This document shows positions 53,703-64,000 of a DNA stretch of 64,000 nucleotides, one piece after another. The position numbers and the translations under genes were made by a program. Source of the stretch: Ilumatobacter coccineus YM16-304 (lineage in GTDB: Bacteria > Actinomycetota > Acidimicrobiia > Acidimicrobiales > Ilumatobacteraceae); assembly GCF_000348785.1 (NCBI RefSeq), contig NC_020520.1, forward strand, positions 4,278,001 through 4,342,000. The letters run 5' to 3'. The first letter of the stretch is position 1; the number at the start of each line of letters is the position of its first letter. Under the pieces are notes generated by a model. The model was not told where the DNA came from and did no database searches. It saw only the letters and a list, made by a program, of their open reading frames with translations.

Positions 53703-54395
53703 ATGGCTGATCCGACTCGAATGCTCGCCGTCGTTCCAGACCCACCGTCTCCCGAGTTGGCGCGAACGCTCGATCTCGCCGGCTACTCGTGGAAGGCCGT
53801 CGGCTCGATCGGCGCAGCCGGCGAAGCCGAACCCGACGGCGGGTGGGCCGGCGTCGTCATCGACGCCACCGAGAGCGTCGAGAACGCGTGGAGCTTCCTC
53901 CGCACGATCCGCAAGCACCACTCCGACCCGATCCCGGCACTCGTCCTCGTCGCGGGCACGCAACTCGACGAGCTCGAGCATCGTGACGACATGTTCGACG
54001 ACTTCTGTCTGACACCGTTCCACCCGGCCGAGCTCGAAGCGCGCCTGCGCCACCTCCTCACCTCCGAGACCGATGTGGTCCAGGCCGATCTCGTCGAGTA
54101 CGGCGATCTCACGCTCAATCTCGAGACCTACCAGGCATCGATCGGCGGTCGTCCGCTCGACATGACCTACATGGAGTACGAGCTGCTGAAGTTCCTCACG
54201 CAGAACCCCGGCAAGGTGTTCACCCGAGAGATCCTCCTCAGCCGTGTGTGGGGCTACGAGTACTACGGCGGCGCTCGCACGGTCGACGTGCACATCCGTC
54301 GACTCCGCGCCAAGCTCGGCGAGGAGCACGCGGGTCTGATCCAGACGGTGCGTTCGGTGGGCTATCGCTTCGGTCAGTCCCGCTGGGACGGCTGA
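53703..54395 (+). CDS. GlnR-like orphan OmpR-family regulator
   Basis: 230 residues. The N-terminal receiver-like domain is degenerate: no acidic cluster near the start, and a single candidate Asp in 'VVIDATESV'. The C-terminal winged helix is 'LDMTYMEYELLKFLTQNPGKVFTREILLSRVWGYEYYGGARTVDVHIRRLRAKLG'. Both halves resemble actinobacterial GlnR, the nitrogen master regulator that works without a cognate kinase. No kinase gene is adjacent. Position behind two glutamine synthetases makes nitrogen control likely. Confidence 0.82.
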   Translation: MADPTRMLAVVPDPPSPELARTLDLAGYSWKAVGSIGAAGEAEPDGGWAGVVIDATESVENAWSFLRTIRKHHSDPIPALVLVAGTQLDELEHRDDMFDDFCLTPFHPAELEARLRHLLTSETDVVQADLVEYGDLTLNLETYQASIGGRPLDMTYMEYELLKFLTQNPGKVFTREILLSRVWGYEYYGGARTVDVHIRRLRAKLGEEHAGLIQTVRSVGYRFGQSRWDG

Positions 54396-54404
54396 CCGCC
54401 CCGT

Positions 54405-55136
54405 TCACTGCAAGAAGTTCGCCACCGTGGTGGTGACGAGGTTGGCGAACACCTTCGCGCCCTCGTCGCCCGGGTGGATGCCGTCGCTGCGCAGCACGCC
54501 CTCGGTCGGGGCGAGTTCGCTCCATCGCCCGATCGTCGCGTTGCCGCGTGCGGTGAGGCGGGACTCGATCGCCTCGTTGACCTCGGCGGTGGCTTCGGGC
54601 CGGTCGCCGAAGTAGGTGTTGACCCAGATCAGCGGTGCGCCGTCGGGGATGGGGTCGAGGATCTCGTCGATCTCGGCGGCCACCTCGTCGGTGTCGTTGT
54701 ACTGGCCGATGTCGTTGGTGCCGAGCGCCACCACCCAGAGCGTCTCCTCGGGGTCGGATTCGAGGCCGGCGGCGATGAACTCGGCGATGTCGGCTCCGCT
54801 CGCGTTGTCGCCGAAGGTGACGCCGATGCGCTTTCCGGTCTGCGCGTTGATCGACACGTCGGCGAAGCCGAGTTGCTCGAACTGCTCTTCGAGATAGGGG
54901 GAGGCACCGACCGTGATCGAGTCGCCGATCATCACGATCGAATCGACGCTGCCGGTGTCGATGGCGCGTACCTCGGCGCTACCCGAGATGCTGCCGAGGT
55001 CGGAGCCGAGTCCGATGGTCGGCAGCGGTGACTCCTCGAAGGGCTCACCGGAGGTGGTGTCGGCGTCGCTTCCGCCGCACGCGGCCAGGCCGAGCGCGGC
55101 AACGAGGAGGAGACCGGTGATACGAGGGGACGTCAC
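54405..55136 (-). CDS. SGNH/GDSL-type hydrolase lipoprotein
   Basis: 243 residues. Signal peptide with lipobox 'LAAC' (C20). SGNH blocks are 'MIGDSITVGA' (catalytic Ser), 'GLESDPEETLWVVALGTNDIG' (GxND block) and 'DGIHPGDEG' (Asp/His). It is an extracytoplasmic esterase or lipase-like enzyme; the substrate could be a cell-wall glycan acyl group. It converges with the regulator at 54395, leaving 9 bp between stops. Confidence 0.9.
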   Translation of the reverse strand: MTSPRITGLLLVAALGLAACGGSDADTTSGEPFEESPLPTIGLGSDLGSISGSAEVRAIDTGSVDSIVMIGDSITVGASPYLEEQFEQLGFADVSINAQTGKRIGVTFGDNASGADIAEFIAAGLESDPEETLWVVALGTNDIGQYNDTDEVAAEIDEILDPIPDGAPLIWVNTYFGDRPEATAEVNEAIESRLTARGNATIGRWSELAPTEGVLRSDGIHPGDEGAKVFANLVTTTVANFLQ

Positions 55137-55231
55137 TCCGACATTCTGGCAACCGGGGAGGGCCGCTCCGCGTCACCCTCGCCGTCACGCTTGTCACTCA
55201 CGCCCGAGCGGCCAGGTGGCAGATGTGGAGA

Positions 55232-56614
55232 TCAGAGCTGTTGAATCCGAGCGGCGAACGACGCGTGAGCGGTGAGCATCTCGTCGAGACGGTCGCTCAC
55301 GAGCATGCCGTTGCGCACGACGGGCGTTCCGGCGACCACGGTGTCTCGTGCTCCGGTCGGCCCGCAACGAAGCCACGCTTCGATCGGGTCGGCGATGGCA
55401 CCAGCGAACGACGGGCCGGTGAGCGACCAGACCGCTATGTCGCCGACGGCACCGACCGTGATGGTGCCCAGTTCGCCCTCGCGCCCGAGGCACCCGGCAC
55501 CGCCGATGGTGGCGACTTCGAGCGCCATGCGCGCGGTACCGGCGTCGGCGCCGTCACGCAGTTTGGCGAGGAGCATGGCCTGGCGTGCTTCGAGCCACAG
55601 CGATGCGGCGTCGGCAGATGACGATCCGTCGACGCCGAGGCCGACCTTGACACCGGCCGCGCGGAGATCGACCACCGGGGCGATCCCCGAGGCGAGGATC
55701 ATGTTGCTCGACGGACAGTGCGCTGCGCCCACGCCCGCTGCGCCGAGCCGTTGGATCTCGTCGTGGTTCGGCATGACGCAGTGCGCGACCCAGGTGCGAT
55801 CGGTGCACCAGCCCGTCCGCTCGAGGTACTCCATCGGCCGACAACCGAACGTGGCGAGGCTGAACTCGTCGTCTTCGGCGTTCTCGGCGAAGTGCGTGTG
55901 GAGGCGCACGTCGAGCCGTTCGGCGAGTTCGGCCGTGCGGACCATCAGGTCTTCGGTGACCGAGAACGGCGAACACGGCGCCAGCGCGATGCGCGTCATC
56001 GCTCCGTGCGACGGGTCGTGATGGCGGCTCACGGCCGCTTCGCACGCGGCGAGAATCTCGTCGTCGTCGGCGACCACGTCGTCGGGTGGGAGGCCGCCGT
56101 CCTTCTCCGACAGCGACATCGAGCCGCGAGTCGGGTGGAAACGGATGCCCAGGTCGGTCGCCGCGTCGATCTCGGCCGTGAGCAGGTCACCGGCGCCGTG
56201 CGGGTGCAGGTAGAGGTGGTCGGACGACGTGGTGCAGCCCGACAGCGCCAACTCGGCCAACCCGACCCACGCCGACACGTGGACCGACTCGGTGTCGATC
56301 GCCCGCCACAGTGGGTACAGCGACTGCAGCCACCCGAACAGCGGCTTGTCGGTCATCGGCGGGAACGCCCGCGTCAGGTTCTGGTACAGGTGGTGATGTG
56401 TGTTGACGAGCCCCGGCGTGACCAGGCAGTCGGACGCGTCGATCGTCTGTCGACCCGCGGGTGCGGGGCCGTCCCCGACGCCGCTGACGAGACCATCGGT
56501 GATGGCGACCCAGCCGCCGGCGATCTCACGCCGCTGTGCGTCGACCGTCGCGACGCATCGGGCGTTGACGATGACGAGATCGGCGACTTGCTCCGACGCG
56601 GTGATGTCGGACAT
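55232..56614 (-). CDS. 8-oxoguanine deaminase / amidohydrolase
   Basis: 460 residues. The metal-binding 'GLVNTHHHLYQNLTRAFPPM' (HxH at about 73-75), 'HTHFAENAEDDEF', 'VAHCVMPNHDEI' and 'GLGVDGSSSADAASLW' are typical of the ATZ/TRZ-type subgroup that deaminates 8-oxoguanine to urate. It is the last gene of an operon with an XDH-like fusion, RidA and a small membrane protein, consistent with purine degradation or sanitation. Confidence 0.88.
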   Translation of the reverse strand: MSDITASEQVADLVIVNARCVATVDAQRREIAGGWVAITDGLVSGVGDGPAPAGRQTIDASDCLVTPGLVNTHHHLYQNLTRAFPPMTDKPLFGWLQSLYPLWRAIDTESVHVSAWVGLAELALSGCTTSSDHLYLHPHGAGDLLTAEIDAATDLGIRFHPTRGSMSLSEKDGGLPPDDVVADDDEILAACEAAVSRHHDPSHGAMTRIALAPCSPFSVTEDLMVRTAELAERLDVRLHTHFAENAEDDEFSLATFGCRPMEYLERTGWCTDRTWVAHCVMPNHDEIQRLGAAGVGAAHCPSSNMILASGIAPVVDLRAAGVKVGLGVDGSSSADAASLWLEARQAMLLAKLRDGADAGTARMALEVATIGGAGCLGREGELGTITVGAVGDIAVWSLTGPSFAGAIADPIEAWLRCGPTGARDTVVAGTPVVRNGMLVSDRLDEMLTAHASFAARIQQL

Positions 56615-56622
56615 GTCGGCGG

Positions 56623-56778
56623 TCAGTCGTCGAGTTCGAGGAGTTCGCTGCCGGGGTGGCGAGCGACGCCATCACGACGGAGGAACTCGCCGAGGATCGC
56701 CGACGCGGCCGCGCCGCTCATGAGCAGCCCGACGGGAATCAGGATCATCACGACGATGAGGGCGATCGCTCCAGCCAT
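56623..56778 (-). CDS. Small single-pass membrane protein (51 aa)
   Basis: ATG 56778 to TGA 56625. One N-terminal helix (MAGAIALIVVMILIPVGLLM) is followed by a cytoplasmic tail ending 'GSELLELDD'. Similar tiny proteins with a final 'GSEL(V/L)xLN/D' occur in many actinobacteria without known function. It sits 9 nt from RidA and 8 nt from the deaminase gene, inside the operon, which argues that it is real. Confidence 0.72.
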   Translation of the reverse strand: MAGAIALIVVMILIPVGLLMSGAAASAILGEFLRRDGVARHPGSELLELDD

Positions 56779-56787
56779 GACGTGATG

Positions 56788-57141
56788 TTACCCGGCGGGG
56801 CAGTGAGCGATGGCTTCGACTTCGACCAAGAAGTTGGCCGGGAGCGAGGCGACGGCCACGCACGATCGGGCCGGGCGGTGATTGCCGAACGCTGCCGAGT
56901 AGACCTCGTTGAACGCGGCGTAGTTCTCCATGTCGGTCAGGAAGCACGTGGTCTTGACGACGTCGCTCATCGACGCGCCGACCGATTCGAGTTGCATCTG
57001 GAGGTTCTTCATCGTCTGCTCGGTCTCGGGCACGACGCCGCCGTCGACGACCGAACCGTCGAGCAGGCCGCCCTGGCCTGAGACGAAGACGTAGTCGCCA
57101 GCGCGAACGACCGGTGTGTAGGGACCCAGGGGCTTTGGCAT
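56788..57141 (-). CDS. RidA-family reactive intermediate deaminase
   Basis: 117 residues, trimeric YjgF/YER057c/UK114 fold: 'LGPYTPVVRAGDYVFVSGQGG', 'EQTMKNLQMQLESVGASMSDVVKTTCFLTDM' and 'RSCVAVASLPANFLVEVEAIA' with the conserved Arg (R90 region). It hydrolyses reactive enamines/imines. It starts 4 nt after the XDH-like gene stop, so it may quench intermediates of that pathway. Confidence 0.92.
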   Translation of the reverse strand: MPKPLGPYTPVVRAGDYVFVSGQGGLLDGSVVDGGVVPETEQTMKNLQMQLESVGASMSDVVKTTCFLTDMENYAAFNEVYSAAFGNHRPARSCVAVASLPANFLVEVEAIAHCPAG

Positions 57142-57145
57142 GTGA

Positions 57146-58705
57146 TCAGGCTAGGCGCGCCGAGGTCGGCAACTGCAAAGGATGATCGACCTGTCGCCAG
57201 GCCGCTGCGAGGGCTGCGGCGAACACCGCATCGCTGGCGTTGACGGGGTCACCGGCGCTGCTCGGAGCGATCGCGATGTCGATCTCGGGTGTGTCGGTGG
57301 CCCGCAGCACGCCGAACGATCGGATCGTCAGGTCGAGGGGCACGCCGTCTTCGTCGAGCGCGATCGATTCGCCGAGGACGAGCCCCAGCGCCATGTGGAC
57401 CGCGCCGATGCAGTACGAGCGAAGGACGACGTCGTCGAGGGGGTCGCCGCAGTCGACCGTGACGTTCGGTCGCCCATCGGCGTCGACCACGGCGGTGGCG
57501 GTGGCCCCGTCGGGCGAGGTGACCGTGTCGGGCGATTCGCCGAGCGACGCGACGACGGCGGCGACCTCCGCCCACACCGCACCGCGCAGCGCTGCCGACA
57601 CGGGCGGTCCGGCGAGATCGACGAACTCGACGTCGACGGCGGGGGCGACCGAGCGGAGGGCGTGGCGAATCGTCTCCTCGTCGGCGACGTTCGCCGGGCG
57701 GGCGACTCGCGCCGTGCCCGAGCCGTCGGCGGCGACACCGACCGCCAGCGGAGGTCGTTTGGCTCCGAGCCGGACGACGTCTTCGCGAGCGAACAGCACG
57801 CGCACGGTGCGGCCGTGCTGGTCGGCGAGCCGACGGGCGACCGAGCCGACGCTCGAGTCGGACTTGCCACCGAACGCTCCCCCGTTGCCGAGCGGAGAAC
57901 TCGGCTGACCGCCGGGCGAACACCATGCCGCGTCGGGTTCGAGGTAGGCCGGTTCGACCCACGTGGTCTGCAGCGATCGGGCCCACTCCCCCGGCGGCAG
58001 TTCGATCGGCCACTGCGCCGCCGCGGTCGTGCGCCGACCCTGCACCTTGCCGGCGAGGCGACGAGCTGCACCGATCGTCTCGGCGGCCACCCACTCGCCG
58101 TCTTGGCCGAGCAGCGCGACGAGTGCGTCGTCAGGGGCCTCGTCGTCGCTGAACCCGCCGTACCCGAGCGCCACCTGCGCTCCGACGGTCTGCGCCGCGC
58201 CGCCTTCGATCAGCGCGCGTCGCTCGGCTGCTGCGAGGTCACGGTCGAGCGGTTCGCGAGCGTCACCGCGAGCCACGCGCACCGCTGCCTCGCGCACGGT
58301 CTGCCAGCCGGTACAGCGGCACAGGTGTGCGAGCAGCGCCTTGTCGACCGCCTCGCGATCGGCGAGTTGCTCGGGTGTCAGCACCGACAAGCGGGCGATG
58401 ATGCCGGGGGTGCAGAAGCCGCACTGGCTCGCGCCGGCATCGCAGAACGCTCGGGCCCACGCGTCTCGGTCGGCGAGCCCGTCGACCGTCGTGACGGATC
58501 GCCCACGGACACGACTCACCGGGGTCACGCACGCCACGCGCGGTCTGCCGTCGACCAGGACCGTGCAGCAGCCACATTGGCCTTGCGGACTGCATCCGTC
58601 TTTGGGCGAGCGCACACCGAGCTCGTCGCGCAACGCGTCGAGCAACGACACGGCGTCGTCGGTCACGACGACCGAGTCACCGTCGAGCTCGAAGTCGATG
58701 GTCAT
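57146..58705 (-). CDS. Compact xanthine dehydrogenase-like 2Fe-2S / molybdopterin-domain fusion
   Basis: 519 residues. Residues 1-150 form a full small subunit: first cluster C38, C44, C47, C60 and second cluster C95, C98, C129, C131 ('CGFCTPG', 'LCRCTGW'). Residues of about 165-519 resemble a molybdopterin-binding subunit but with half the usual length. The recognisable pieces are 'TTWVEPAYLEPDAAWC', 'GNGGAFGGKSDSS' and 'VLFAREDVVRLGAKRPPL'. The C-terminal catalytic Glu region is not apparent. It could be an electron-transfer or scaffold fusion that needs another subunit, or a decayed enzyme, but the frame is intact. It is the first gene of the deaminase operon. Confidence 0.85.
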   Translation of the reverse strand: MTIDFELDGDSVVVTDDAVSLLDALRDELGVRSPKDGCSPQGQCGCCTVLVDGRPRVACVTPVSRVRGRSVTTVDGLADRDAWARAFCDAGASQCGFCTPGIIARLSVLTPEQLADREAVDKALLAHLCRCTGWQTVREAAVRVARGDAREPLDRDLAAAERRALIEGGAAQTVGAQVALGYGGFSDDEAPDDALVALLGQDGEWVAAETIGAARRLAGKVQGRRTTAAAQWPIELPPGEWARSLQTTWVEPAYLEPDAAWCSPGGQPSSPLGNGGAFGGKSDSSVGSVARRLADQHGRTVRVLFAREDVVRLGAKRPPLAVGVAADGSGTARVARPANVADEETIRHALRSVAPAVDVEFVDLAGPPVSAALRGAVWAEVAAVVASLGESPDTVTSPDGATATAVVDADGRPNVTVDCGDPLDDVVLRSYCIGAVHMALGLVLGESIALDEDGVPLDLTIRSFGVLRATDTPEIDIAIAPSSAGDPVNASDAVFAAALAAAWRQVDHPLQLPTSARLA

Positions 58706-58808
58706 GTGGCCGTGGGGATCATGCGCGGCTCACGACATCGCCCAGCGGCACATTCACTGGCACGCCCTGCCGGCATGGTCGGCCCGCGTCGAGGCCGGTG
58801 CCGAGCGG

Positions 58809-59750
58809 TCAGCGGCCACCGTCGAGTTCGTCGGTCAGCGCCACGAAGGCCTCCCACTGTCCGGTGGCGAGGAGTTCGGCCTGACGTGGCCACGATTCGG
58901 GCTTGTGGATCTGATAGCGCGGGCCGGCTGCGTCGAGCATGGAACGCAGGTCGGCGGTGTCGGTGTCGGCGAGTCCGCGCCAGGTGTCGATGCCGATGCC
59001 ACGGCACAGCTCCGAGATCTTCGGACCGATGCCTTCGACCACGGTCAGGTCGTCGAGCGCGATCTTCTTGCCGATCGCCGCGGCTGCTGCTGCGAGGTCG
59101 AGCGCCGGGGCGTCGGCCGCTCGCGCTGCATCGGCATCGGCAGCGGGGGTTTCGGCCTCGGTGGCGTCGGCCTCGACGCCGTCCTCGGTGATGCCGTCCT
59201 CGGTGGCCTCGGCCTCGTTGGCGTCGTCGGCATCGGCCTCGTTGGCGTCGTCGGCATCGGCATCGATCGGGTCGGGCACGGCGACGAGACCTGCCACCGT
59301 GGCGGGCCGTTCGTTTTCGTCGGCGGCGTCACCGTCGGCGTCCGACGGATCCGGCATGATCCCGGAGCTCGTCGCATCGGCGTCGGTGTCAGCAGGCTCG
59401 TCGGCGTCGCCCGAGTCCGACCCCGCCGTCTCGGTGTCAGCTGGCGCTTCGGCGGGCTCGTCGGCCTCCGGCTCGATCACATCATCGACCGGTGCACCGA
59501 CCACGCCCGGCGAATCTGCGGCGCGCAGATCGGCGACCTGCATACGCAGACGATCACGCTCGGCCACCACCTGTTCGAGGTTGGCGAGACGATGGCGCAT
59601 GCGATCGACGTCGTCGACGTCGACGTTGGCCGACCGGGCGTCGGCGATCTCTGCTCGGCACTTGAGGCTGCGGAGCAACCAACCGATCACGCCGCCGATC
59701 AGTGCGGCGAGGCCGAACCAGAGCAGGAACTTCAACAGGGTGTATGGCAC
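58809..59750 (-). CDS. Membrane-anchored helix-hairpin-helix protein with acidic linker
   Basis: 313 residues. One N-terminal helix (about 5-27), a short coiled-coil ('DVDRMRHRLANLEQVVAERDRLRMQVADLR'), a long Asp/Glu/Ala-rich disordered linker (about 80-225) with 'DDANEADADDANEAEA' repeats, and a C-terminal domain beginning 'DDLTVVEGIGPKISELCRGIG', the HhH-type fold found beside OmpA genes. It follows the OmpA/fasciclin gene by 61 bp and is probably its partner in the envelope. 58706-58808, before the XDH gene, holds no gene. Confidence 0.82.
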   Translation of the reverse strand: MPYTLLKFLLWFGLAALIGGVIGWLLRSLKCRAEIADARSANVDVDDVDRMRHRLANLEQVVAERDRLRMQVADLRAADSPGVVGAPVDDVIEPEADEPAEAPADTETAGSDSGDADEPADTDADATSSGIMPDPSDADGDAADENERPATVAGLVAVPDPIDADADDANEADADDANEAEATEDGITEDGVEADATEAETPAADADAARAADAPALDLAAAAAAIGKKIALDDLTVVEGIGPKISELCRGIGIDTWRGLADTDTADLRSMLDAAGPRYQIHKPESWPRQAELLATGQWEAFVALTDELDGGR

Positions 59751-62565: not shown

Positions 62566-62895
62566 TCAGGAGAACGACTGGCCGCAGCCGCACGTGCGGC
62601 TGGCGTTGGGGTTCGTGATGGCGAAGCCCGACTGGTCGAGGCCGTCTTTGTAGTCGAGCGTCGCGCCTTCGAGCAGCTGCGCCGAAGCCGGGTCGACCAC
62701 GACGCGAACCTTGCCGTCGTCGCCGTATTCGGCCGTGGTGTCGTCACCGGCGATGTCGCCGTCGAAGAACATCTCGTAGGAGAATCCAGAACAGCCGCCG
62801 GGACGAACGGCGACGCGGAGCGCGAGTTCTTCAGCGCCTTCTGCGGCGAGAAGTTCGCCGACCTTGGCAGCTGCGGGATCGGTGAGCGTGATCAT
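62566..62895 (-). CDS. erpA: Iron-sulfur cluster insertion protein ErpA (A-type carrier)
   Basis: 109 residues. Cluster-ligand cysteines are in 'GGCSGFSYEM' and the C-terminal 'CGCGQSFS'. 'MITLTDPAAAKVGELLAAEG' is the usual N-terminus. GGAGGT 7 nt before the ATG fixes the start. It delivers [2Fe-2S]/[4Fe-4S] clusters to apo-proteins. It follows the SufR-like gene in the same direction with a 53-bp gap carrying a palindrome. Confidence 0.95.
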   Translation of the reverse strand: MITLTDPAAAKVGELLAAEGAEELALRVAVRPGGCSGFSYEMFFDGDIAGDDTTAEYGDDGKVRVVVDPASAQLLEGATLDYKDGLDQSGFAITNPNASRTCGCGQSFS

Positions 62896-62948: not shown

Positions 62949-63653
62949 TTACCGTGCCGAGACGGTCACTCGGCAAGGTGTGCGGCTGGTGAGGGTGGCG
63001 AAGTCACGGGTGGTGGCGTCGCCCATCTCGTCGACGAATCCTTCGATGAGCCCTCTGTGTAAACCACAGACGAGCTCGGGATGTTCCCGGGCCAGCTCCG
63101 CGAACGGACAGTTCGCGAACGCGATGACCGCGGATCCGTCGTCGTCGGGGCCATCTGCGTGTGTGGCGGACTGTGTGGCGGGGTGCGCATCGGCGACCAC
63201 CGGGTCGAAGCCGAGCTTGTCGAGATCGGACACGAGTGCTTCGAGCGTGGACGGCGCCTCGGCGTACGGACGCGCTCGACGGCGGCCTTCCTCGTCGCCG
63301 ACCGCTGCCGCGTCGTCGCTGCTGGCCTGGAGCCGCTTGGCCATCGACAGCACCATCTTGGCGAGGACCGGCGTGGTCGGCGGTTCGAGGCCGAGCAGCG
63401 GGGCCGACTCGGCGATGGCGTAACGGTGCTGCGGACGACCCACATCACCTCGCCCTCCGACATGCACCTCGAGCAACCCCACATCGCGCATGCGCTCGAG
63501 GTGCGGGCGCACCGTGTTGGCATGCAGGCCGAGGGTGGCGGCGATGTCGCTCGTGGCGAGTGGCCGACTCGAACGGGCGAGCTCGAGGTAGATCGCGTAG
63601 CGGGTGTTGTCGCCGAGTGCTTTGAGCACGTCGAGAGGCACCAGCGTTTCCAC
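62949..63653 (-). CDS. SufR-like Fe-S-sensing winged-helix repressor
   Basis: 234 residues. The N-terminal winged helix is 'LKALGDNTRYAIYLELARSSRPLATSDIAATLGLHANTVRPHLERM'. The C-terminal sensor has Cys residues in 'FANCPFAELAREHPELVCGLHRGLIEGF' and 'RTPCRVTV', the pattern of SufR-type regulators that bind a labile [4Fe-4S] cluster. Its neighbours are erpA and an ApbC-like gene, both Fe-S factors. The GTG start lies 6 nt after a TAATCT -10 box. Confidence 0.85.
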   Translation of the reverse strand: METLVPLDVLKALGDNTRYAIYLELARSSRPLATSDIAATLGLHANTVRPHLERMRDVGLLEVHVGGRGDVGRPQHRYAIAESAPLLGLEPPTTPVLAKMVLSMAKRLQASSDDAAAVGDEEGRRRARPYAEAPSTLEALVSDLDKLGFDPVVADAHPATQSATHADGPDDDGSAVIAFANCPFAELAREHPELVCGLHRGLIEGFVDEMGDATTRDFATLTSRTPCRVTVSAR

Positions 63654-63692: not shown

Positions 63693-64000
63693 ATGGTCAG
63701 CGACGCCACCTCCACCGGACAGGCGAGGCGCCCAGCGCCGCCCACGCCCGAGGAGGTGCGCGGCGTGCTCGAATCGGTCATCGACCCCGAACTCGGTGCC
63801 GACATCGTGTCGCTCGGCATGGTGCCCTCGGTCGAGGTCGCCGACGACGGCGTCGTCACGGTCGAGATCAAGCTCACCATCTCCGGCTGCCCGATGCGCG
63901 CCGACATCCAGAAGGAAGTCAAAGATCGCGTCGAGTTGCACCCCGGCGTCAGCAAGGTCGCGATCACCTGGGGCGAGATGAACGCCGAGGAGCGCAGCGA
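63693..64000 (+). CDS. Mrp/ApbC-type Fe-S carrier, N-terminal MIP18 domain, cut by window end
   Basis: 102 codons are visible with no stop. The MIP18 (DUF59) domain reads 'VLESVIDPELGADIVSLGMV', 'VTVEIKLTISGCPMRADIQKEV' and 'VAITWGEMNAEER'. The typical continuation is a P-loop ATPase that carries Fe-S clusters, but it lies outside the window, so a stand-alone SufT-type protein cannot be excluded. It is divergent from the SufR-like gene with only 39 bp between starts. Confidence 0.85.
   Translation, partial: MVSDATSTGQARRPAPPTPEEVRGVLESVIDPELGADIVSLGMVPSVEVADDGVVTVEIKLTISGCPMRADIQKEVKDRVELHPGVSKVAITWGEMNAEERS

Follow-up and report, generated by a model that had tools for sequence, protein, structure and literature searches.

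Our analysis of a 64,000-nucleotide (nt) stretch of the Ilumatobacter coccineus YM16-304 genome (hereafter the window; contig NC_020520.1, positions 4,278,001 to 4,342,000 of a genome that forms one contig of 4,830,181 bases) centres on a compact protein related to xanthine dehydrogenase (XDH), which keeps a complete two-cluster [2Fe-2S] unit and very likely works without the molybdenum cofactor (Moco). An old molybdoenzyme scaffold seems to have taken on a different role, in electron transfer; we tentatively infer from the neighbouring genes that this could be the donation of two electrons to iron-sulfur (Fe-S) cluster assembly centred on ErpA. The gene and its parts lie in the window as follows (aa, amino acids).

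57146..58705, minus strand: compact XDH-like protein, 519 aa, a two-[2Fe-2S] domain joined to a shaved molybdopterin-domain scaffold
58256..58705, minus strand: complete two-cluster [2Fe-2S] unit, residues 1-150
57149..57970, minus strand: reduced core of the molybdopterin domain, residues 246-519, without the Q-loop, GQG and GSRG segments and with the catalytic Glu not conserved
57863..57886, minus strand: NGGAFGGK motif, residues 274-281, with G276, F278, G279 and K281 in 110/110 aligned rows

A preliminary description of this DNA had recognized an XDH-like protein of about half the usual length with a complete two-cluster unit and a GGAFGGK motif, and this anatomy is borne out by an alignment of 110 rows (106 distinct), in which the query stands as L001 and the others are the best matches from searches of the order (Acidimicrobiales) and of close relatives; as the rows are best matches and four repeat another row, conservation is somewhat overstated. 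The Fer2 and Fer2_2 domains cover residues 7-141 (Fer2_2 E 3e-16), and the eight cluster Cys of the two [2Fe-2S] sites, in the plant-type plus helical domain, are present in all 110 rows. The approximately 360 residues that follow hold only two short pieces of molybdopterin domain, both below the cut-off of 27 bits (MoCoBD_1, positions 94-149 of 244, 20.3 bits; MoCoBD_2, positions 225-283 of 283, 23.8 bits), and the NGGAFGGK site reads N-A-G-A-F-G-A-K in one clade. Compared with a full-length paralog encoded elsewhere in the genome (L008), the hammerhead domain and the Q-loop, MGQG and GSRG segments are missing, and we take the Q-loop, GQG and GSRG segments to be Moco-binding. The Gln position of the EGQIEG block is occupied by Tyr in 109/110 rows. 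The catalytic Glu is not conserved either, the nearest candidate (position 486) being Glu in 39, Pro in 44 and Asp in 7 of the 110 rows, with Glu absent at positions 487-491. In the excerpt available of PMC2671166, a conserved active-site Glu is described for the bovine enzyme (E1261) and for mouse AOX1 (E1265), being essential in the latter. The protein scores 149.7 bits against TIGR03311, below the cut-off of 830.45, and none of the 20 NCBIfam families listed for it reaches its cut-off.

The predicted fold points to a scaffold that was trimmed rather than halved. AlphaFold, run with the family alignment, gave a confident model of the 519 aa (predicted local distance difference test, pLDDT, 94.3; predicted template modelling score, pTM, 0.94), which VIA-align placed onto the Desulfovibrio gigas aldehyde oxidoreductase (1sij) over 483/519 residues, spanning chain residues 2 to 901 (Z 23.9, 2.7 Å); a single superposition by Foldseek was looser (TM-score 0.69 by query length, root-mean-square deviation 10.2 Å). 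Modelled alone, the Mo-like part reached a pLDDT of 92.3 and matched molybdopterin subunits (4zoh_A over 331/367 residues, Z 22.6, 3.5 Å). A library of viral structures returned one weak, uninformative fragment match. In the model, then, the overall molybdopterin-domain fold of the xanthine oxidase family is kept, and the superpositions indicate a predicted complete aldehyde-oxidoreductase/XDH scaffold with its loops shaved rather than a half domain.

A frameshift or cut annotation, which would have refuted the preliminary description, was rejected, since compact orthologs of similar length occur across the order: 107/110 rows are 496-564 aa long and the other three 471, 630 and 663 aa, one of the 110 lacking a stop inside its locus. 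Among 248 order genomes, 194 match at 1e-30; 31 have only weaker matches (2.5e-31 to 1.9e-43), which are expected to be full-length paralogs, and the compact form is present in about 163 by a hand count at 1e-56 that includes some split matches. In the class (Acidimicrobiia), 127/395 genomes match a 74-row profile (A1) at 1e-70, 85 of them in the order and 42 outside it, although two (G737, G725) are contig-end fragments covering profile positions 3-203 only. Beyond the class, the search took in a 396-genome sample of the phylum, with 17 matches at 1e-50, every one in the class, and a scan of close relatives (267 relatives, best 80). These counts are shaped by the E-value cut-offs, which were 1e-56 for the order, 1e-70 for the class and 1e-50 for the family considered next. 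The compact gene also occurs in a metagenome-assembled genome titled Bifidobacterium breve (L091), a record that is probably mislabelled.

Evidence on cofactor use comes from one family (f22), in which the compact protein is found in 50/81 genomes. A tie to Moco biosynthesis, a trait of the xanthine oxidase family, is lacking in half of these: 25/50 have neither MoaA nor MoeA, and in all but one of these 25 MoCoBD_1 above its cut-off is missing as well (24 genomes). Restricting the comparison to the 33 compact-positive genomes with a completeness of 90% or more and a contamination of 5% or less leaves 18 without MoaA, MoeA and MoCoBD_1, and in G216 and G237 (96 and 97% complete) the compact protein is present while MoaC, the MoaA C-terminal domain, MoCoBD_1 and MoeA were undetected. 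The 31 f22 genomes without the compact protein divide into 16 with MoaA and MoeA and 15 without, so that Moco synthesis and the compact protein look unlinked. A tree was built from 51 compact proteins, of which 24 were labelled Moco-less and 19 Moco-plus and 8 stayed unlabelled; the label needs seven changes on it, and supported branches make at least six of these unavoidable. L169 sits on a long branch in this tree, G628 was left unlabelled as partial (a MoaA fragment with a stop, and no MoeA), and six of the 50 compact-positive genomes (G617, G643, G647, G660, G684, G687) were left out of the tree and of the loci described below. The 24 Moco-less rows keep G276, F278, G279, R307, E308, R317, R374 and E380 without exception and K316 in 23, and each cluster Cys is present in 23 or 24 of them, the sole exception being a gap. 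Because many genomes in which no Moco synthesis could be detected retain the protein, its function is very likely Moco-free. Its persistence through several apparent losses of Moco synthesis amounts to a natural experiment in cofactor loss, and an XDH-like annotation in this class may not imply a molybdenum enzyme.

MoaA, MoeA and MoCoBD_1 were used as markers because MoaC, which is found in 237/248 order genomes, is misleading on its own, some f22 genomes keeping it without MoaA or MoeA. MoaC-negative genomes outside f22 (e.g., G077) were set aside, as their lack of MoaC might be due to a missing contig. The f22 genomes with MoaC detected and MoaA and MoeA not are G074, G193, G110, G142, G168 and G022; they may carry an orphan moaC in a small genome, or their MoaC may have another role.

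What the protein might do instead is suggested by its neighbours, those within the window being the following (HTH, helix-turn-helix).

56788..57141, minus strand: RidA-family imine deaminase, 117 aa (TIGR00004), conserved neighbour of the compact gene
56623..56778, minus strand: 51-aa protein, hydrophobic in its N-terminal two thirds, with a C-terminal GSELLEL stretch that is moderately conserved in the alignment
55232..56614, minus strand: 8-oxoguanine deaminase, 460 aa (NF006055), sporadic operon member
62566..62895, minus strand: erpA, A-type Fe-S carrier (NF010147), here with three other genes between it and the compact gene, its immediate neighbour in f22
62949..63653, minus strand: HTH regulator with three conserved Cys (HTH_20; NF033788 37.3 bits, cut-off 55; no family above its NCBIfam cut-off)
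63693..63998, plus strand: start of the gene for a Mrp-type ATPase, an Fe-S carrier, which runs past the end of the window (FeS_assembly_P, PF01883, 66.4 bits)
53724..54395, plus strand: GlnR-like response regulator (Trans_reg_C, GlnR_1st), frequent convergent neighbour

The regular companions of the compact gene are not those of an XDH operon, as the preliminary description had sensed; the core is erpA upstream and ridA with the gene for the 51-aa protein downstream. Across 56 well-covered loci, the window included, Mrp-type genes were found in 50, ErpA in 45, RidA in 44, GlnA in 42, the 51-aa protein in 41, the GlnR-like regulator in 36 and the HTH regulator in 9, as counted from a simple gene caller that missed the compact gene itself in 16/111 loci. 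The association is tightest in f22, where erpA lies upstream in 44/44 loci fetched (within 154 nt in 39 measured loci and 9-39 nt away in five that were remeasured) and ridA downstream in 42/44. A second set of 14 loci, four of them shared with the 44, has both genes in 14/14, some with intervening genes, and among 18 loci taken from the other families of the class erpA occurs in 17 and ridA in 13; by the same gene caller, ridA is directly downstream in 66/91 loci with room for it. Those of the other-family loci that the gene caller could resolve usually begin with Mrp, the HTH regulator and ErpA; a secreted-type gene often comes next, and then the compact protein, RidA, small protein, GlnR-like regulator and GlnA. 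The window keeps this order, but with three genes separating erpA from the compact gene. The most regular operon partners are erpA and ridA, which together with the compact gene (X) make up a module, erpA - X - ridA. In some loci (L131, L132, L071 and others) an opposite-strand glnE directly follows the compact gene with an overlap of 4 to 19 nt (five loci measured), and in L131 and L132 it separates the compact gene from ridA.

Several of these assignments pass curated thresholds, namely RidA (TIGR00004, 113.6 bits, cut-off 106.25) and ErpA (NF010147, 117.7 bits, cut-off 117), in which Cys 35, 102 and 104 are kept in 80, 83 and 83 of 83 sequences. The HTH regulator, encoded next to erpA, keeps Cys 182, 196 and 227 in 25, 26 and 26 of 26 sequences and is, in our reading, probably SufR-like; the excerpt available of PMC8593673 mentions SufR as described in two Actinobacteria only. 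A full-length Mrp-type member (L125:2904-4091) combines FeS_assembly_P with ParA/NUBPL. The 51-aa protein is without a match in Pfam and NCBIfam and, again in our reading, has a predicted membrane span in its hydrophobic part. In PADLOC, RidA alone gave a match, to the C-terminal part of PD-T4-2_B, and this was not taken as a sign of defence. The four minus-strand reading frames (58705..57146, 57141..56788, 56778..56623 and 56614..55232) are separated by gaps of 4, 9 and 8 nt, as first described; this spacing makes the claimed single transcript likely, and a simple scan of 54900-59100 lent it no further sign, finding neither a sigma-70-type promoter nor a terminator.

We propose that the compact protein would have descended from a single-chain XDH-type enzyme (2Fe-2S plus molybdopterin), losing the hammerhead domain and most cofactor-binding loops while both [2Fe-2S] sites and the overall scaffold were retained and the catalytic Glu ceased to be conserved. 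It would then be an electron-transfer protein carrying one electron on each of its two [2Fe-2S] clusters and donating them within an ErpA-centred pathway of Fe-S cluster assembly or repair, for example where an A-type carrier couples [2Fe-2S] clusters into [4Fe-4S] at the cost of two electrons, or in the reduction of a persulfide; the old cofactor pocket may have been reused as a docking or ligand site. The two electrons that the clusters hold are the number needed for such a coupling on an A-type carrier. According to an excerpt of PMC8593673, IscA can turn [2Fe-2S] into [4Fe-4S] through reductive coupling with two electrons; the same source gives the donor of electrons to SufBC2D as unknown. 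RidA, for its part, would protect the pathway's pyridoxal phosphate (PLP)-dependent cysteine desulfurase from 2-aminoacrylate, a role it fits because damage in a Pseudomonas aeruginosa ridA mutant has the cysteine desulfurase IscS as a significant target (PMC9239102, in excerpt). We regard a wider claim with slightly more doubt: that across the class this former molybdenum scaffold serves Fe-S assembly as its dedicated donor of two electrons, or as a redox-linked chaperone, encoded in the erpA - X - ridA module and filling the electron-donor slot of the SUF/A-type-carrier pathway. If electrons do go to A-type carriers, the cluster reductant in SUF-type assembly becomes testable in a defined gene module.

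A number of observations weigh against Moco independence or against the proposed donor role. Glu does stand at position 486 in 39/110 rows, with D492 nearby kept in 107/110, and F278 (the Phe of GGAFGGK) and R374 (109/110) are nearly invariant and may be Moco-contact residues. According to PMC8305194 (in excerpt), the cofactor of another family member owes its stability to a Phe and an Arg, and an active-site loop of the AFRGFG type is described there; the assignment of R374 to the Arg of such a loop is our own reading, in a stretch that the profile comparison leaves unaligned. Some Moco-less labels come from incomplete genomes (e.g., G637 82%, G642 64%, G660 64%). The Mo-like core has a higher entropy in Moco-less than in Moco-plus rows (1.33 vs. 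0.97), a comparison confounded by deep branches, and a distance-ratio test was therefore added, with a mixed outcome: relative to the Fe-S part, the core diverges more in Moco-less rows (median ratio 1.26 vs. 1.06), mainly through one deep Moco-less clade (1.36), in which constraint is possibly relaxed, while genus g383 (1.12) lies near the Moco-plus value. As for the donor role, gene adjacency argues through guilt by association, and that of erpA could be inherited chromosomal order, the genes for the GlnR-like regulator and GlnA being frequent neighbours too. Finally, a small ferredoxin would suffice as donor; the retention of 360 scaffold residues hints at an additional binding role, which our proposal leaves unnamed.

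The same scaffold counts in favour of the main rival to the electron-donor proposal, which is doubtful and yet the best placed of the alternatives. Here the protein would be a Moco-free oxidoreductase, its old pocket binding another ligand or cofactor (e.g., an anionic amine, a nucleotide or a flavin), its clusters carrying the electrons off and RidA hydrolysing the imine product. The retained scaffold suggests a ligand site, the Moco-less rows keep the charged residues listed above (R307, E308, K316, R317, R374 and E380), and ridA is so often the very next gene; Rid proteins are imine deaminases that can speed the reaction of D-arginine dehydrogenase (PMC5619798, in excerpt). The family matches, however, name Fe-S clusters and degenerate stretches of molybdopterin domain but no other cofactor, and erpA would be left without a role. 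Nor are Fe-S clusters known to oxidise amines by themselves.

Less probable again is a non-catalytic Fe-S protein, whose two [2Fe-2S] clusters would report or buffer Fe-S status beside ErpA and Mrp, the protein acting as a sensor, a store of clusters or a scaffold for their transfer. The company of ErpA (45/56), Mrp-type carriers (50/56) and the three-Cys HTH regulator (9/56) would suit such a protein, as would hydroxylase residues that are lost or not conserved, but neither Pfam nor NCBIfam found a DNA-binding domain in it, and in domains of this type the clusters normally lie buried and transfer electrons. A compact molybdenum hydroxylase, binding Moco where the host makes it, with the Moco-less copies being relics or having drifted to another use, appears improbable. 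It would account for the retention of GGAFG, F278 and R374, for Glu486 where it occurs (followed in most by Pro, as in a GEP-type motif), for MoaC in 237/248 order genomes and for the less constrained Mo-like core of one Moco-less clade. Yet even across this MoaC-rich order the protein has no Q-loop, GQG or GSRG segment and no conserved Glu; moreover, the gene and its erpA and ridA neighbours outlast several losses of Moco, and genus g383 is little relaxed.

Comparison with known systems brings out what sets the compact protein apart. The closest is the fused, selenium-dependent-type XDH of TIGR03311, here represented by the paralog L008, in which a two-[2Fe-2S] unit at the N terminus is likewise joined to a molybdopterin domain. 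Three hhalign blocks count as aligned between the two (residues 2-195 at 44% identity, E 2.5e-41; NGGAFGGK, E 9.2e-9; HMALG/LTIRS, E 3.3e-9), the MAFFT placement of L008 in the middle region being unreliable. Relative to that type, the compact protein is about 360 residues shorter, besides lacking the hammerhead and the three loop segments and having no conserved Glu. Desulfovibrio aldehyde oxidoreductases (1sij, 1dgj) are likewise single chains without a flavin adenine dinucleotide domain, and the 1sij-type enzyme holds a molybdopterin cytosine dinucleotide (MCD) cofactor with Glu869 near the Mo (PMC10223205, in excerpt); at 907 residues, 1sij has the cofactor loops that the compact protein lacks, and its Glu869 is not conserved in the latter. 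Nicotinate dehydrogenase NdhL/NdhM, too, has a molybdopterin subunit of roughly half the usual size (3hrd_A, 425 aa, matched weakly at E 9.7e-6), the missing half being a second subunit, whereas the deletions in the compact protein are interspersed and no complementary gene is conserved nearby. A complementary molybdopterin half was not a frequent neighbour among 111 neighbourhoods or the 18 other-family loci, a search in which part of the neighbour clusters was family-scanned and the rest of the genome was not searched. The preliminary description had offered a new compact enzyme or one in need of a partner; the compact form is real, and the conserved neighbourhood holds no candidate partner for the missing half. 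With the [2Fe-2S] ferredoxin and A-type carrier of Fe-S assembly, the compact protein has in common a [2Fe-2S] domain encoded next to an A-type carrier and, as our working idea, a role as electron source; it differs in bearing two clusters on an XDH scaffold instead of being a small ferredoxin. At the level of titles and abstract openings, the literature searched on XDH in Acidimicrobiia or Ilumatobacter, on truncated or pseudoenzyme XDH and on ErpA with RidA contained no description of the compact protein, nor did we find there a xanthine-oxidase-family protein working without molybdopterin.

The purine or oxidised-purine operon of the preliminary description, with a half XDH working together with the 8-oxoguanine deaminase, is very improbable, and was rejected as a core function on the distribution of the deaminase: the tight gaps, a deaminase above its curated cut-off (NF006055, 602.6 bits, cut-off 532) and close homologs of it near the compact gene in 10 other genomes speak for it, but the deaminase is present in 8/56 well-covered loci (the window included) and, at 1e-5 in loci mostly spanning about 2-4 kb on each side, in 0/44 f22 and 0/18 other-family loci, one of these 18 giving a weak partial match (E 3e-5), while the residues of a purine hydroxylase are lost or not conserved and the genome has a pucD-type XDH at another place. 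The separate XDH genes that were sought there proved to be a large subunit of this pucD type (TIGR03196, 801.7 bits, cut-off 783.65), by which purine oxidation is plausibly covered, and the fused TIGR03311-like L008 (L008:5933-8569, minus strand, approximately 880 aa; 788.2 bits, cut-off 830.45). The deaminase gene would then be a later, local addition.

The close deaminase homologs of the 10 other genomes were found in nine loci and in L125 (L126 and L059 belong to the same genome). A PLP-dependent decarboxylase accompanies the deaminase in 9/11 loci, the two without it being the query's own two copies; it lies between the 51-aa gene and the deaminase gene (L125:9857-11221; L070:9219-10610, PF00282) and is absent from the window. 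The L008 stretch also encodes a distant amidohydrolase relative of the deaminase, at 27% identity.

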